Below, piece after piece: positions 43,578 to 49,481 of a DNA stretch of 64,000 bases. The position numbers and the translations under genes were made by a program. The stretch's first letter is position 1; every line of letters begins with the position of its first letter. The stretch is from [Mycobacterium] crassicus. GTDB lineage: Bacteria; Actinomycetota; Actinomycetes; Mycobacteriales; Mycobacteriaceae. Under the pieces are notes generated by a model. The model saw only the letters and a list, made by a program, of their open reading frames with translations, did no database searches and was not told the DNA's origin. The stretch is from the NCBI RefSeq assembly GCF_020181615.1, contig NZ_CP084029.1, positions 3,037,216 through 3,101,215 on the forward strand. Reading direction: 5' to 3'.

Positions 43578-44132
43578 ATGCTCCTCCCGGACTTGTTCTC
43601 GACCGTCCCGACGACCGCCGCCGAGGCCACTGACGTCTTCGACGCCGCGGAGGCCGTCGACCCCGACTTCATGCTCGGCACCTGGCACGGGGCCGAGCTG
43701 CCGACCGACCACCCCCTGGACGGGCTGTTGGCCGCCACCGGCTGGTGGGGCAAGCAGTTCATCGACGCCGAGACGGTCCACCCGCTGCTGTTCCCCACCC
43801 GCGACGGATCCGCGCTGTGGGCATTCAACCCGGCGCTGGCGTTCAGCGTCCTCGGGCTAGCGACGAAACTGCCGGCGCTGAAGAACCGCTCGTTCCTCGG
43901 GCCGATCAACACGCTGCAGCCGCTGCTTCGCACCCGTTCGGCCAGGGCTCGGCTGCGGACTACCCGGTACCGCGGTACCGACACCGCGACCATGGTCTAT
44001 GACCAGGCCCCGATCAACGACGTCTTCCGCCGGCTCTCCGACGACGCGGTGATCGGCGCGATGGACCTGCGGGGCTCGCCCCGGCCGTATTTCTTCGTGC
44101 TGTGCCGCGACGACTCGCTGAAATTGGCCTAG
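43578..44132 (+). CDS. GXWXG/DUF4334 domain protein
   Basis: A 184-aa protein. The N-terminal part holds the GXWXG box (FMLGTWHGAELPTDHPLDG, then TGWWGKQF), and the C-terminal part resembles the DUF4334 domain (APINDVFRRLSDDAVIGAMDL). Function unknown. The ATG at 43578 follows GGTGA, and a GTG/ACG-rich frame upstream is open but improbable. A perfect palindrome stands just before it. It converges with the CT-domain gene with a 4-nt overlap. Confidence 0.83.
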   Translation: MLLPDLFSTVPTTAAEATDVFDAAEAVDPDFMLGTWHGAELPTDHPLDGLLAATGWWGKQFIDAETVHPLLFPTRDGSALWAFNPALAFSVLGLATKLPALKNRSFLGPINTLQPLLRTRSARARLRTTRYRGTDTATMVYDQAPINDVFRRLSDDAVIGAMDLRGSPRPYFFVLCRDDSLKLA

Positions 44133-46111
44133 CAGCGGGCGATTTCGCCGGCCTCATGCCACGCAGTGCGCTCCGCGGTGAACGCGGCGACCTGTTGGTC
44201 ACGGAAGCCGGCGATGCTCTCGGTGTTCCCGGCCAGGAATCGGCGGTAGTCCGCCAGTGAGAACTCGCCGTCGGTGATATCGACCCGCCCGCACCCGGCC
44301 GCCATGTCGGCACGCAACTCCAACAGTTCGTCGGCGCCTACCGGATAGAAGCTGATGCGGTCGAAGTAGCGCAGCAGCCAAGGTGTTTCGGGATCGAACA
44401 GCCCGGCGATGGCATGCCGGTGGTTCCACACCTGGGTGGTGCGTCCGACGAACTGGTAGCCGCCCGGCCCCTCGATGCCGTAGATGCACAGGTAGGCGCC
44501 GCCGATCCCGACGGCGTTCTCCGGGGTCCAGGTGCGGGCCGGGTTGTATTTGGTGGTCACCAGCCGGTGCCGCGGATCCAGCGGGGTGGCCACCGGTGCG
44601 CCGAGATAGATGTCGCCCAGGCCCAGCACCAGGTACCGCGCGTCGAACACGATGTCGTAGACCTGGGAGATGTCGTCAAGCCCGTTGATGCGCCTGATGA
44701 ATTCGATGTTCGACGGGCACCACGGCGCGTCGGGCCGCACACCGTACATGTACCGGCGGATGGCCTCGTGGGTTCCGGGGTCGTCCCAACTCAGCGGCAG
44801 ACGCACCGACCGGCTCGGCACGACGAGCTCATCGCACGGTGGCAGCGCATCGTCGATGGCCGCGAGCTCCCCCACCACCTCGTCGCACGTCACCTGCTCG
44901 GTGTCGAACTGGATCTGCAGCGAGCGCACGCCGGGTGTCAGCTCCCGCAGGCCCGGCAGTCCGCGCTCCCGCACCTGTCCGTAGAGCACCTGCACCCGCG
45001 CCCGCAGTGCCAGATCCAGTGTCATCGGGCCGTATTCGAGCAGCACCCCGCCATCGCCGCAGCGTCGCACGGTGACGGTCGTGCCGTCGCGGCCGGTGTG
45101 GCGCTGCAGTACCCCGTCGTCGCCGTCGCCGGATCGGGAGACCACCGGCACCGCCGCCCTCCGCCGCACGCCCAGCGACGCCACCGGTGGGGCGCATTCG
45201 GCGCGGATCGGCACCAGACGTACGGTGTCGCCCGGGCAGAGTTGCCCGAGTTTCCAGCGGTCGCCGCGCACCACCGTCACCGGACAGACGAAGCCGCCCA
45301 GGCTGGGCCCGTCGGGGCCGAGCAGGATCGGGGTGTCCCCGGTGAAGTCCAGCGCCCCGACGCTGTACGCGGTGTCGTGGATGTTCGACGGGTGCAGCCC
45401 GGCCTCGCCGCCGTCGGGCCGCGCCCACCGCGGTTTCGGCCCCACCAGTCGCACGCCGGTGCGGTCGGAGTTGAAGTGCACCGTGTAGTCGGTGGTGGTC
45501 AGGGTTGTCATGTCGGCGCGGGTCAGAAACTCCGGCGCGGCGTGCGGGCCTTCGGTCACCGCCAACTCCCAATGCCGGCCGATGCTGGGCTGACTCTGGC
45601 TGGGCGCACGGGACAGCATCGGTGCCGCACCGTCGCGGCCGACAGCGCTCAGCCGATCCGACTCCCGCAGCGCCCGGCCGTGGTGGCCGCCGAACACACC
45701 CTGGGTGAACGTGGCTGCGCTGCCGAGGAAGTCCGGTTCGGCGATACCTCCCTCGACGAGCACGTAGCAGCGCATCCCGGGCCCGGGGATGGCGCCGATC
45801 TCGAGCAGGCCGCCGGCGGGTATCCGCACCGACTGCCACTGCGGAACCGGAGCTCCGTCCAGGCTGACCGGCACCGCGGCGCCGGTGACACACACCCATG
45901 CGGAACTCGAAAAACGCAGGGCCGGGCCCGCTTTCGTGCATTCGAGACCGGCTGCCCCTTGGGGATTGCCCAATACCTGGTTGCCGACCCGGAACGACAG
46001 GTCATCCATCGGCCCCGACGGCGGCACCCCGACATGCCAGTACCCGACCCGACCGGGCCAGTCCTGCACCGTGGTGAACAGCCCCGGGGAGACCACCTCG
46101 ATGCCGATCAT
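44129..46111 (-). CDS. Carboxyltransferase part of a urea/guanidine carboxylase (KipA-KipI fusion)
   Basis: A 660-aa protein with two domains. Residues about 1-310 are the AHS2/KipA domain (MIGIEVVSPGLFTTVQDWPG, then PPSGPMDDLSFRVGNQVLGN). Residues about 365-600 are AHS1/KipI (TVTVRRCGDGGVLLEYG, then GIEGPGGYQFVGRTTQVWN). In urea/guanidine carboxylase the same order forms the carboxyltransferase core, preceded by a biotin carboxylase domain and followed by a biotin carrier. Both are missing here, and the end FTAERTAWHEAGEIARC stops where the carrier would begin. The start overlaps the upstream DUF1989 gene in ATGA. A biotin carboxylase encoded elsewhere or a non-carboxylating role (5-oxoprolinase-like) are the alternatives. 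Confidence 0.88.
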   Translation of the reverse strand: MIGIEVVSPGLFTTVQDWPGRVGYWHVGVPPSGPMDDLSFRVGNQVLGNPQGAAGLECTKAGPALRFSSSAWVCVTGAAVPVSLDGAPVPQWQSVRIPAGGLLEIGAIPGPGMRCYVLVEGGIAEPDFLGSAATFTQGVFGGHHGRALRESDRLSAVGRDGAAPMLSRAPSQSQPSIGRHWELAVTEGPHAAPEFLTRADMTTLTTTDYTVHFNSDRTGVRLVGPKPRWARPDGGEAGLHPSNIHDTAYSVGALDFTGDTPILLGPDGPSLGGFVCPVTVVRGDRWKLGQLCPGDTVRLVPIRAECAPPVASLGVRRRAAVPVVSRSGDGDDGVLQRHTGRDGTTVTVRRCGDGGVLLEYGPMTLDLALRARVQVLYGQVRERGLPGLRELTPGVRSLQIQFDTEQVTCDEVVGELAAIDDALPPCDELVVPSRSVRLPLSWDDPGTHEAIRRYMYGVRPDAPWCPSNIEFIRRINGLDDISQVYDIVFDARYLVLGLGDIYLGAPVATPLDPRHRLVTTKYNPARTWTPENAVGIGGAYLCIYGIEGPGGYQFVGRTTQVWNHRHAIAGLFDPETPWLLRYFDRISFYPVGADELLELRADMAAGCGRVDITDGEFSLADYRRFLAGNTESIAGFRDQQVAAFTAERTAWHEAGEIARC

Positions 46112-46713
46112 CGTCGGGTGATCACCATCCGGACCGGGGTCGGGTCGAAGCCGTTGCACGGGTTGTTGATCTGCGGGCAGTTCGACACCAGGACCAGCGT
46201 GTCGGTCTCGGCCCGCAGGGTCAGGCTCTTGCCCGGCGCCGAGATGCCGTCGACGATGCCCAATGTGCCGTCGGCTTCGACCGGGACGTTCATGAACCAG
46301 TTGATGTTCGACACGATGTCCCGCTTGCCCAGGCCCCACTTGGCGCCTTCGGCGAGGAAGTTCTCCACGCAGGCGTGCTGGTGGACGGTGTGGTGCCCGT
46401 AGCGAAGTGTGTTGGATTCCTGCGAACAGGCGCCGGCGATGGTGTCGTGATTACCCACGTCGTCGGCGACGACGGTCATCAGTGCGGCGCCGTCAGCGGC
46501 GCGCAGCACCGAGCCGGTGCTCACGAAGATATTGCGCTGGGCGGCGACGGTGGCCTGGGCGCTGTATCGACGGGTGTGGTCGACGGCGTCATAGAGCAGG
46601 CAGTCCACCGCCTGGTTGCCGTGCAGGTCGATGATCTGGAGTCGATCGCCGGCGCGCACCACTGCCGACCAGGGCGCGCGGGCCGGGACCACGTCGTCGG
46701 AGACGGTCACCAT
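46108..46713 (-). CDS. DUF1989 protein, urea-carboxylase-associated (CgdB-like)
   Basis: A 201-aa member of the family once called urea carboxylase-associated protein 2 and now recognised in several bacteria as a subunit of carboxyguanidine deiminase. Typical blocks are LHGNQAVDCLLYDAVDHTRRYS, VADDVGNHDTIAGACSQESN, and ENFLAEGAKWGLGKRDIVSNINWFMNVP. It overlaps the next DUF1989 gene by 7 nt and the CT gene by 4 nt, so the three are translationally coupled. Which subunit it is, CgdA or CgdB, is inferred from size only. Confidence 0.88.
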   Translation of the reverse strand: MVTVSDDVVPARAPWSAVVRAGDRLQIIDLHGNQAVDCLLYDAVDHTRRYSAQATVAAQRNIFVSTGSVLRAADGAALMTVVADDVGNHDTIAGACSQESNTLRYGHHTVHQHACVENFLAEGAKWGLGKRDIVSNINWFMNVPVEADGTLGIVDGISAPGKSLTLRAETDTLVLVSNCPQINNPCNGFDPTPVRMVITRR

Positions 46714-47441
46714 GCCCGCACCACCGCTTCGGTGTTCTGCACGGCGCGCAGGTATTCCGGGTCCCGGTTGATCAGGTCGGCCAACTGCTCACCGGCGCGC
46801 CAGCCGAGCACGTCCAGCCCGGTCGCCGGCGGGTCGGGATCCAGCGGATGCGCGGCATTGGCGACCACCAGCACCACCGGAAGGTGGATCAGCAGGTCCA
46901 GCGCCGCGCCGGGTCCCGCCGACCCGGTGAATTCCAGTGCCCCGGTGACCGGATCGACGCGCACACCGCGGAACAGCGACACCGACGGTGCCACGTCCCG
47001 AATGTCCATGCCGTGCTTGATCGCCCCGAGCAACAGCAGTTGCCGGCCGGTGGCGTCCGGGCCGCAGAGCATGTCGTGGTGGCCGGAGGAGTCGGCGACA
47101 ACGGTGGCCAGCACGCGTCCCTGATCGGACAACAGCGGATGTCCCGTGCCCAGGTAGGCCTGCCAGGGCACCTTCATGGTGTCGGCGACGTTCAGCCGCT
47201 CCCACGGCGCCTCCGCGCGGTACAGCAGCAGATTCGCGCACGCGCCGCCCTCGATGTCGATCAGCCGGATCCGGCTGCCGCGAGGCAGCACCTTGGTGGC
47301 GTAGCCGTTCCCCGGGATCGATTCGGCCCAGATCACCGTCGTCGGGTCGACGCCGTCGGGTGTCGCCGGTATCCGCAGGTCGGCCTGCCGCGCCTGGGCA
47401 CGGGCGTGTGACCGGGCCCCGCTGGTCGAATCGGTGTTCAC
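46707..47441 (-). CDS. DUF1989 protein, urea-carboxylase-associated (CgdA-like)
   Basis: A 244-aa DUF1989 protein, the larger partner (urea carboxylase-associated protein 1 type). Recognisable blocks are LPRGSRIRLIDIEGGACANL, VLATVVADSSGHHDMLCGPD and VAPSVSLFRGVRVDPVTG. The GTG at 47441 has GAGGAG 7 nt before it. The first gene of the operon faces a TetR gene with a palindrome between the two start codons. In complete guanidine pathways this protein, its partner and a carboxylase act with allophanate hydrolase, which is not seen here. Confidence 0.87.
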   Translation of the reverse strand: MNTDSTSGARSHARAQARQADLRIPATPDGVDPTTVIWAESIPGNGYATKVLPRGSRIRLIDIEGGACANLLLYRAEAPWERLNVADTMKVPWQAYLGTGHPLLSDQGRVLATVVADSSGHHDMLCGPDATGRQLLLLGAIKHGMDIRDVAPSVSLFRGVRVDPVTGALEFTGSAGPGAALDLLIHLPVVLVVANAAHPLDPDPPATGLDVLGWRAGEQLADLINRDPEYLRAVQNTEAVVRAW

Positions 47442-47481
47442 CGCAGATCTCCTCTCGACACCCGGCACCCTAACATGGTTA

Positions 47482-47497
47482 TCTATCATTCGATAGA
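47482..47497. promoter_or_regulatory. Operator-like palindrome between the DUF1989 operon and TetR
   Basis: TCTATC, ATTC, GATAGA: a perfect inverted repeat with 6-bp arms. It lies in the 72-bp gap between the divergent starts at 47441 and 47514 and is probably the site where the TetR protein represses both genes. Confidence 0.6.
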
Positions 47498-47513
47498 AAT
47501 AGCGAGGTGCGCC

Positions 47514-48173
47514 GTGGAGACCGACCGACGAGGCAGACCCAGGCTGGTGGCCTCCCGCCGGCCCGGGCGCAGCGCGCGTGACGAAATCCTTGATGCGGCA
47601 GCGGAGTTGTTCACCACCGTCGGATACTCCGCTACCTCCACGCGGCGGATCGCCGACAGTGTCGGCATCCGGCAGGCCTCGCTGTATCACCACTTCGCCG
47701 CCAAGGACGACATCCTCGACGCGCTGCTGGCCGGCACCGTGGACGCCTCGGTGGAACTGGCCGCCGAGTTGCTCGCCGAGGACGGGCCGATGGCACCCCG
47801 GCTGCATACGCTCGTGGTCGCCGACACCGCCCAACTGTGCAGCGGCACCTGGAATCTGGGCACCCTGTATCTGCTGCCGGATCTTCGCGTCGAGCGCTTC
47901 GCGGCATTCCACCGGCGGCGGGATTCGTTGCGAAGCCATTACGGCGAGCTCTCCCGGGCGGTGATCGCCGAGCACGACGGGCCCGCAGACGCCGACGATC
48001 TGCCGTTCCGGTTGGTGGAGGCCGTGATCAACCGTCGCTCCGACGACGGCACCTGCCCACCCGACCATCCGTGGACCACCGCTGAGGCCGCACTGCGGGT
48101 GTTGGGCTGCGCACGCGGCTTATCCCGGATGCGCGCGCAGACCGCGCGGCGGTTGGGGCTGTCGCCCGAATAG
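47514..48173 (+). CDS. TetR/AcrR family transcriptional regulator
   Basis: A 219-aa regulator. The helix-turn-helix spans about residues 20-65 (ARDEILDAAAELFTTVGYSATS, then RIADSVGIRQASLYHHFAAKDDIL). The GTG at 47514 with GCGAGG before it gives a better start than an ATG 39 nt earlier, which would lie inside the operator. It is divergent from the DUF1989-carboxyltransferase operon and probably controls it. The inducer is unknown; guanidine or a related nitrogen compound is a hypothesis. Confidence 0.9.
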   Translation: METDRRGRPRLVASRRPGRSARDEILDAAAELFTTVGYSATSTRRIADSVGIRQASLYHHFAAKDDILDALLAGTVDASVELAAELLAEDGPMAPRLHTLVVADTAQLCSGTWNLGTLYLLPDLRVERFAAFHRRRDSLRSHYGELSRAVIAEHDGPADADDLPFRLVEAVINRRSDDGTCPPDHPWTTAEAALRVLGCARGLSRMRAQTARRLGLSPE

Positions 48174-48227: not shown

Positions 48228-49481
48228 ATGTCCTCGACCACGACTTCAGCCGGTGCAGATGCGGGTCCTGCCCGGCGTCTGGAGGTGCTTTTCGAGGAGC
48301 TGTCGGAGTTGACCGGTCAGCGCAATGCGATCGATGGTCGCATCGTGGAGATCGTCGCCGAGGTCGAACGCGACGACTTGTGGGGTTCCACCGGAGCACG
48401 GTCGATCCCGGCGTTGGTGGCCTGGAAGACCGGGGTGTCACCGGCCAACGCGGAAACGATCGCCGCGGTGGCGCACCGGATCGAGGAGTTTCCCCACTGC
48501 ACCCAGGGGCTACGCGAAGGCCGCGTCTCATTGGATCAGGTCGGGGTGATCGCCCAGCGCGCCGCCGACGGCTCCGACGAGCACTACGCGCAGCTAGTCG
48601 AGGTGGCCACCGTCAGCCAACTGCGCACCGCGATCAAACTCGAACCCCGCCCCGATCCCGATCGGCGCGGACCGCAACCGTCGATCACCAAAACCGGCGA
48701 CGCCGAGTTCGACTTCTGGCGCATCACTTTGCCGCATGCCGAATCGGCGGTGTTCGCGGCCGCACTGCAGTCACATCGGGATGCGCTGATCGCCGAGTGG
48801 ACCCACGACCGCGACAACAGTGACGGCACAGCCGATCAGCATCCCCCGATGCCCACCCAGGTCGATGCGTTCCTGCGGCTGGTGCAGGCCGGCTGGGACG
48901 GCGAGGTGCAACGGCGCCCGCACGGACAGCACACCACCGTGGTGGTGCACCTCGACATCAACCAGCAGATCGGCGCCCTGCACCTGGGCCCGCTACTGGC
49001 TGATGCCGAGCGGCAGTACCTGACCTGTGATGCCACCTGTGAGGTGTGGTTCGAACGCGACGGCCAGGTGATCGGTGCTGGCCGCTCGACCCGCACCATC
49101 AACCGCCGACTGCGCCGCGCCCTCGAGCACCGCGACCGCACCTGCACGGTTCCCGGCTGCGGCGCCACCCGCGGCCTGCACGCCCATCACATCCAGCACT
49201 GGGAAGACGGCGGCCCCACCGAGCTCGCCAATCTCGTGCTGGTCTGCCCCTACCACCACCGCCTACACCATCGCGGCATCATCACCATCACCGGTAACGC
49301 AGCCAACCTCACCATCACCGACCGCGCCGGCCGACCCTTGAGCGCAGCATCGCTCGCCCGGCTACCGAAGAAACCCCCACCCGCAGTCAAACCCTGCCCC
49401 GGGCCCACCGGCGAACGCGCTCAATGGTGGTGGTACCAACCATTCCAACCACAACCACCACCGACCACCAACCAGAACTGA
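48228..49481 (+). CDS. DUF222/HNH endonuclease-like protein (13E12 repeat family)
   Basis: A 417-aa protein. The DUF222 region (about residues 20-290) is followed by an HNH motif, RTCTVPGCGATRGLHAHHIQ with the downstream LVCPYHHRLHHRG. Many mycobacterial copies, including the REP13E12 elements of M. tuberculosis, are repetitive and mobile-associated, and some serve as phage insertion sites. The C-terminus is Pro-rich and ends PPPTTNQN. No inverted repeats were seen at its borders. It lies at the end of the accessory block before coaD. Confidence 0.9.
   Translation: MSSTTTSAGADAGPARRLEVLFEELSELTGQRNAIDGRIVEIVAEVERDDLWGSTGARSIPALVAWKTGVSPANAETIAAVAHRIEEFPHCTQGLREGRVSLDQVGVIAQRAADGSDEHYAQLVEVATVSQLRTAIKLEPRPDPDRRGPQPSITKTGDAEFDFWRITLPHAESAVFAAALQSHRDALIAEWTHDRDNSDGTADQHPPMPTQVDAFLRLVQAGWDGEVQRRPHGQHTTVVVHLDINQQIGALHLGPLLADAERQYLTCDATCEVWFERDGQVIGAGRSTRTINRRLRRALEHRDRTCTVPGCGATRGLHAHHIQHWEDGGPTELANLVLVCPYHHRLHHRGIITITGNAANLTITDRAGRPLSAASLARLPKKPPPAVKPCPGPTGERAQWWWYQPFQPQPPPTTNQN

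Follow-up and report, generated by a model that had tools for sequence, protein, structure and literature searches.

Described Systems and the Orphan Carboxyltransferase Locus

In the literature consulted, guanidine and urea carboxylases appear as single chains carrying a biotin carboxylase (BC), a carboxyltransferase (CT) and a biotin carrier (BCCP). In the guanidine carboxylase pathway, this BC-CT-BCCP enzyme is accompanied by the carboxyguanidine deiminase CgdA/CgdB and by an allophanate hydrolase (AtzF). The operon analysed here, in which the CT stands alone, belongs to [Mycobacterium] crassicus and lies in a stretch of 64,000 nucleotides of contig NZ_CP084029.1 (hereafter, the window); the whole genome is a single contig of 4.87 Mb. 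It shares with the guanidine pathway a CT with the catalytic and guanidine-type residues and the genes UAAP1 and UAAP2, while a second group of orphan systems, named O2, also shares the riboswitch, the permease and AtzF. The orphan systems differ from the pathway in having neither BC nor BCCP in the protein or in the operon, and the window genome is also devoid of an AtzF match. Apparently, the CT-only form is not described in the literature searched.

Three other systems resemble this locus. The AmtR-controlled "urea carboxylase" operon of actinobacteria (PMC4222082) comprises AmtR, two unknown reading frames, the "urea carboxylase", a permease and an amidase; its regulator and box are as in the window, whose operon lacks the permease and the amidase, and the accessible part of that paper treats the enzyme as a urea carboxylase and makes no mention of missing BC or BCCP. 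The 5-oxoprolinase PxpB/PxpC (KipI/KipA) has homologous CT_C_D and CT_A_B domains, likewise without BC and BCCP, but these are encoded by separate genes and retain few carboxylase-invariant residues; the window CT falls under both cut-offs (NF045499, 108.5 against 500; TIGR00370, 29.5 against 145.55), and a separate PxpB/PxpC-type pair (L059) is located elsewhere in the window genome. Lastly, in the AccA3-type acyl-CoA carboxylases the CT subunit is also encoded apart from BC-BCCP, with a single alpha subunit shared among several CTs (PMC11001197); the window CT differs in being of the urea carboxylase type, and we infer its use of AccA3.

Structure of the Operon

The three genes of the operon are the following:

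44129-46111, minus strand: orphan CT, 660 aa, CT_A_B plus CT_C_D, no BC and no BCCP
46108-46713, minus strand: UAAP2 (DUF1989), presumed carboxyguanidine deiminase subunit; TIGR03424, 331.7 bits against a cut-off of 284.7
46707-47441, minus strand: UAAP1 (DUF1989), presumed carboxyguanidine deiminase subunit, GTG start; TIGR03425, 219.3 bits against a cut-off of 205.95

An earlier note on this DNA had described these genes as overlapping by 7 and 4 nt, which the gene coordinates bear out, and the last of them as a fusion running from the start of the CT to the boundary of the carrier. The latter description also stands, since the CT protein aligns with the urea carboxylase model TIGR02712 over positions 449-1111 of 1201 only and a domain scan found neither a BC nor a biotinyl domain in it; it starts past the BC and ends ahead of the BCCP. 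Its domains are CT_A_B (27-300) followed by CT_C_D (347-565), and it can be aligned to the urea carboxylase of K. lactis (3va7/5i8i) across residues 4-640. The TIGR02712 score (935.7 bits) is under the cut-off (1303.85); of the features of the single-chain family, Asp1584 and Lys1605 are present, while BC and BCCP, which were looked for, are missing, and for this reason the protein is not considered a member of that family, although it probably acts in the manner of a guanidine carboxylase subunit. A structure prediction from 20 sequences gave a mean pLDDT of 54.6 and was not used for any conclusion.

UAAP1 and UAAP2 stand side by side, each above its family cut-off, as is proper to the CgdA/CgdB family, and are presumed to be the two subunits of a carboxyguanidine deiminase. 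The invariant Cys and His residues of UAAP2 are kept in the 23 aligned systems, window included. In the window UAAP1, PF09347 is matched as two stretches; this protein, like that of several other mycobacteria and a Nocardia, is devoid of a loop of about 20-25 residues present in other UAAP1 proteins, including those of full-length systems.

Distribution and Origin of the Orphan Form

A comparison with related genomes, suggested in the earlier note, disclosed that the orphan form is widespread and of more than one origin, a second group of it lying behind guanidine-I riboswitches. The scan of public genomes returned at least 593 loci, the best 80 of which form the named-locus set; in 79 of these 80 the CT lacks a BC, the only exception being the full enzyme of an Arthrobacter (L156). 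In all, the architecture of the window was seen in more than 100 other loci. Because the architecture recurs in this way, a frameshift, a truncation or an assembly error hiding BC and BCCP, which the earlier note had named as an alternative, is excluded. Among the matches listed, the nearest named loci of the window CT are those of Mycolicibacter. A CT match reaching 1e-70 or better occurs in 63 out of 298 sampled genomes of the order. All the loci fetched yielded 146 distinct CTs; two cores shorter than 600 residues were dropped before the residue comparison, and of the remaining 144 (cores of at least 600 residues), 33 have a BC and 111 do not, a proportion that is not a census, the sampling having been guided by similarity to the window CT.

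A tree was constructed on 65 representatives of the 144 CTs, left after thinning near-identical sequences, and was unrooted. The 96 CTs of the window's clade (O1) form one group (SH-aLRT 99) placed among full-length guanidine carboxylases, beside the mycobacterial and Arthrobacter enzymes, whereas the O2 and O3 orphans are located elsewhere. Forcing O1, O2 and O3 into one clade, a test that left out L198, worsened the tree by 52 log units (p-AU 0.0008); a single common origin of the orphan CTs is therefore rejected, and the orphan form arose more than once. Given that the root was not inferred, for O2 and O3 a loss is indistinguishable from an originally separate CT.

UAAP2 is directly upstream in 95 out of 96 O1 orphans (median gap 19 bp, maximum 497), and in nine O1 loci, where the called CTs measure 620-802 in length, a gap of 230-497 bp precedes the CT core; in 24 full-length Asp-type enzymes, the gap between UAAP2 and the CT core is 1331-1526 bp and is occupied by the BC. 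Three genomes (G061, G246 and G265; L173, L175, L177 and the orphan loci) harbor both an orphan CT, about 68-69% identical to that of the window, and a full-length Asn-type enzyme of the urea type.

Catalytic Residues and Selection

According to PMC11410670, Asp1584 is required and Asp1330 separates guanidine from urea carboxylases, whereas Lys1605 is the proposed general base of the K. lactis enzyme (PMC5770610). The corresponding codons of the window CT were located by alignment:

45347-45349, minus strand: Asp255, K. lactis position 1330, guanidine-type Asp (rule of PMC11410670)
44612-44614, minus strand: Asp500, K. lactis position 1584 (PMC11410670)
44549-44551, minus strand: Lys521, K. 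lactis Lys1605, proposed general base (PMC5770610)

The window CT thus has the guanidine-type Asp. All the 24 full-length CTs with UAAP neighbours are D-D-K at positions 1330, 1584 and 1605; a 25th D-D-K enzyme showed no UAAP in our gene calling, but its record annotates both UAAP1 and UAAP2. The full-length CTs without UAAP neighbours are N-D-K in all cases (8/8). Every O1 orphan is D-D-K (96/96), 95 of them beside UAAP genes and one at a contig edge. Orphans of the other two groups, also beside UAAP genes, are M-D-K in O2 (12/12; L075, L076 and L178-L187) and I-D-K in O3 (2/2; L199 and L200). The CT of L198, with Ala, Glu and Arg at the three positions and no UAAP, was treated as degenerate.

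A total of 199 columns are invariant in all, or all but one, of the 33 full-length CTs. Retention is 184/199 in O1, 171/198 in O2 and 183/198 in O3, as against 40/82 in PxpC and 13/91 in PxpB (the latter aligned at low identity); several O1 exceptions, at positions 10-33, are probably explained by starts partly trimmed by the simple gene caller. The dN/dS ratio ranged from 0.07 to 0.20 in all the 11 pairs tried, and the O1 clade is under purifying selection.

O2 Operons and Guanidine-I Riboswitches

The O2 operons have the order [permease]-UAAP1-UAAP2-CT-AtzF, with no BC and no BCCP. In 10 out of 13 O2 loci (L075, at 63.9 bits against a cut-off of 63, L076, L178, L179, L180, L182, L183, L184, L187 and L188) a guanidine-I riboswitch (Rfam) precedes the first called gene by 41-207 bp and lies on its strand. 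The CT of L188 is cut short, so that position 1330 is not readable; the other 12 loci are the Met-type set, and nine of these 12 operons are behind a riboswitch. Those without it are L181 and L185, on short contigs of 7.6 and 4.6 kb, and L186. A protein recorded from Amycolatopsis thermoflava has the same sequence as the CT of L183. The presence of riboswitch, permease and AtzF around the O2 CT means that a CT without BC and BCCP belongs to complete operons under a guanidine-sensing RNA. No riboswitch reached the gathering score at the full-length loci L069, L070, L158 and L159, or at either O3 locus.

Candidate Sources of Carboxybiotin

If the orphan CT is a carboxylase subunit, carboxybiotin would reach it in trans. 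The window genome has five BC genes, namely a pyruvate carboxylase, an AccA3-like gene, two more of the AccA type and one in a long frame; the AccA1-3 names are ours, after their mycobacterial counterparts. Each of the O1 genomes G004 and G016 contains four BC genes. The O2 genomes G064 and G272 contain two PF02785 genes each, an AccA3-like BC-BCCP (74 and 76% identical to that of the window genome) and the alpha subunit of a methylcrotonyl-CoA carboxylase (MCC; BT_MCC_alpha domain), which by elimination makes the AccA3-like protein the best donor candidate in these two. AccA3 of M. tuberculosis is common to three acyl-CoA carboxylases (PMC11001197), and AccA3 appears to be the most likely donor.

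Other sources were considered. A BC hidden near the orphan CT was not found, the only BC genes in the 113 orphan loci being those of pyruvate carboxylase (eight loci, 88-100% identical to the window's). Nor is a dedicated extra BC supported: in same-genus genomes at least 93% complete (G003, G005, G008 and G025, less complete, were excluded), PF02785 counts are 4-7 with an orphan, 5-6 with a full enzyme (which is included in the count) and 3-6 where both are lacking. The search for a stand-alone carrier proposed in the earlier note disclosed one over the NF004547 cut-off in the window genome, as well as in G064, and small open frames with Biotin_lipoyl matches in other searched genomes; the carrier of the window genome adjoins sigma-factor-like genes, not the CT. 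In G064 (L241:1658-3041) and G272 (L242:694-2041), a stand-alone carrier gene lies beside one for a 350-aa protein with an N-terminal biotin carboxylase domain only; this was discarded as a partner BC, having no ATP-grasp domain.

The Fate of Allophanate

The search for an allophanate hydrolase that the earlier note had called for gave no TIGR02713 match at 1e-100 or better in the window genome, whose six amidases all stay under the cut-off; urease is present. The same threshold gave no match in six more orphan-bearing genomes of the genus (G004, G009, G016, G018, G022 and G024), whereas G007, G020 and G021 have one hydrolase each over the cut-off. A urease alpha gene occurs in five of the seven genomes without the hydrolase, G016 and G022 showing weak partial matches only. 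Allophanate decays to urea. At L062/L086 (G007; Mycobacterium asiaticum 1081914.2), the allophanate hydrolase gene is directly downstream of a relative of the window CT, and the genome has no urease match.

The AmtR Regulator and Neighbouring Genes

The earlier note had also pointed to a divergent TetR gene with a palindrome and supposed that it controls the operon. Both elements are present, the palindrome being an AmtR box:

47483-47496, strandless: AmtR box CTATCATTCGATAG, CTATN6ATAG
47514-48173, plus strand: divergent AmtR-type TetR regulator, start uncertain (47475, 47514 or 47547)

Among solved structures, the regulator is matched best by 5e57, "Transcription regulator AmtR" (E 1e-86, 293 bits), which we take to be AmtR from M. 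smegmatis; beyond the first six rows, all of the AmtR type, the best match has 52 bits. The published consensus is tttCTATN6AtAGat/aA (PMC2723105). Apart from CTATCATTCGATAG, no CTATN6ATAG occurs in the 64 kb, where 0.03 are expected, and such a site was present in 3 out of 100 shuffles. Over the 83 loci that have an AmtR-like gene in divergent orientation, the mismatches of the best arm match number 0, 1, 2, 3 or 4 in 19, 48, 14, 1 and 1 cases, respectively, and the shuffles have mostly 3 or 4. Taking the GTG at 47514, 72 bp separate the starts of UAAP1 and of the regulator. Being closest to AmtR proteins and having an AmtR box at its target, the TetR protein is identified as AmtR and is the likely regulator of the operon. 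In M. smegmatis, AmtR did not respond to urea or amino acids (PMC4222082). It is known that GlnR binds upstream of MSMEG2184 (PMC3662644), and the AmtR and GlnR papers name the gene urea amidolyase or urea carboxylase (PMC4222082, PMC3662644).

Some neighbouring genes deserve mention. An open reading frame (ORF) at 48228-49481 (417 aa), which we take to be an HNH protein, adjoins the window operon and is duplicated in the same genome (L057:3-884; 96% identity across 294 residues). In many Mycolicibacterium loci the CT is followed by a gene ("g504") for a CYTH/CHAD protein, and in Nocardia two neighbours resemble an epoxide hydrolase and a WYL regulator; none of these seems to belong to the pathway. 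In Rhodococcus sp. SMB37 (L136:12151-15237), the genes downstream of UAAP1, UAAP2 and the orphan CT encode a 187-aa protein matched by no Pfam family, then a 2OG-Fe(II) oxygenase and also a sodium:solute symporter, and L147 has a similar gene order. The L136 neighbours recall the methylguanidine genes mgdH/mgdL (PMC12508155).

Proposed Mechanism and Alternative Explanations

On balance, we consider it rather probable that the operon is a split guanidine-degrading module, whose orphan CT is supplied with carboxybiotin in trans, most likely by AccA3. The CT would be the subunit of a guanidine carboxylase that lost its BC and BCCP domains; it would carboxylate guanidine by means of carboxybiotin borne by a different cellular enzyme, for which the most likely candidate is the AccA3-like BC-BCCP alpha subunit already serving several acyl-CoA carboxylases. 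UAAP1/UAAP2 would deiminate the resulting carboxyguanidine to allophanate and ammonia, and the operon would be repressed by AmtR. In the window organism, which has no AtzF match, allophanate might be lost or might revert to urea for urease.

Several observations weigh against this interpretation. No riboswitch reached the gathering score at the O1 loci L067, L107, L113, L136, L138 and L194, and none was found between 36 and 56 kb of the window with Rfam at E up to 1, in keeping with the earlier note's view of the leader; the two Rfam matches in that interval are both below the gathering score and more than 6 kb away from the operon. Since O2 carries Met, the riboswitch evidence comes from CTs unlike that of the window at position 1330, and both the Met of O2 and the Ile of O3 fall outside the published guanidine rule. 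Near the O1 CTs, AtzF is found in 30 out of 96 cases and the permease in 48 out of 96, and both AtzF and urease are missing from the orphan-bearing G016 and G022. Concerning the donor, no extra BC tracks the orphan CT in the genus, so that AccA3 is argued by elimination only, and stand-alone carriers are an alternative partner. The O2 genome G084, in which no riboswitch was found, lacks an AccA3-like BC and has instead a BC in an open frame of 1858 residues plus a stand-alone BC of 456 residues; the donor may therefore differ between lineages.

Different explanations must be weighed. Of the two ideas put forward in the earlier note, a borrowed BC and a new reaction without carboxylation, the former is the better one; the latter is less supported because O1 and O2 keep nearly all the full-length-invariant positions, to an extent not seen in PxpC and PxpB. 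In its developed form, the second idea says that the orphan CT no longer uses biotin and, like PxpB/PxpC, uses ATP or some other donor to activate a substrate resembling guanidine or a lactam, UAAP1/2 finishing the reaction. The PxpB/PxpC homologues act without biotin, no BC or BCCP apart from the pyruvate carboxylase genes exists in the 113 orphan loci, and O2 and O3 deviate at position 1330, all of which would fit; nevertheless, besides the retained positions, the window CT is far below the PxpB and PxpC cut-offs and UAAP1/2 are retained as in carboxylase operons, so that we regard this explanation as unlikely. Somewhat less likely still is a split carboxylase whose partner is not AccA3 but a small stand-alone carrier charged by some BC, or a lineage-specific BC-BCCP. 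The carriers of the window genome and G064, the small Biotin_lipoyl frames of other genomes and G084 with no AccA3-like gene speak for it; however, the carrier of the window genome lies beside sigma-factor-like genes, away from the CT, and the BC-like protein encoded next to a carrier in G064 and in G272 lacks the ATP-grasp domain.

It might also be that the substrate in the window organism is urea or another amidine rather than guanidine, as the published annotations, the missing AtzF and riboswitch matches and the variability of position 1330 in O2 and O3 could suggest. Asp1330 in 96/96 O1 CTs, the UAAP genes (absent beside the eight Asn-type enzymes) and the urease of the window genome argue against it, as may the finding that M. 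smegmatis did not grow on urea (PMC4222082), and we deem it quite improbable. Least credible of all is a decaying remnant that has lost BC, BCCP and AtzF in a disappearing pathway: Mycolicibacter loci are also devoid of AtzF and permease, but the low dN/dS in every pair, the catalytic residues in all O1 CTs and the retained regulator box leave it very little room.

Significance

The CT-only form is old, occurs in several genera, is under selection and is found in the O2 operons behind riboswitches, which implies that the biotin half of the enzyme can come from another one. With due caution, we propose as a possibility somewhat short of an even chance that actinobacteria more than once came to run guanidine carboxylase as a CT alone, fed by a shared AccA3, a single biotin protein thereby serving both lipid synthesis and guanidine scavenging, with Met instead of Asp or Asn as the specificity residue in O2. 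If this were true, nitrogen scavenging would be tied to the lipid-making carboxylases, the Asp/Asn rule for guanidine versus urea would miss a Met-type group, and a meaning would be given to the "5-oxoprolinase/urea amidolyase family protein" of mycobacteria, Gordonia, Rhodococcus and Amycolatopsis.

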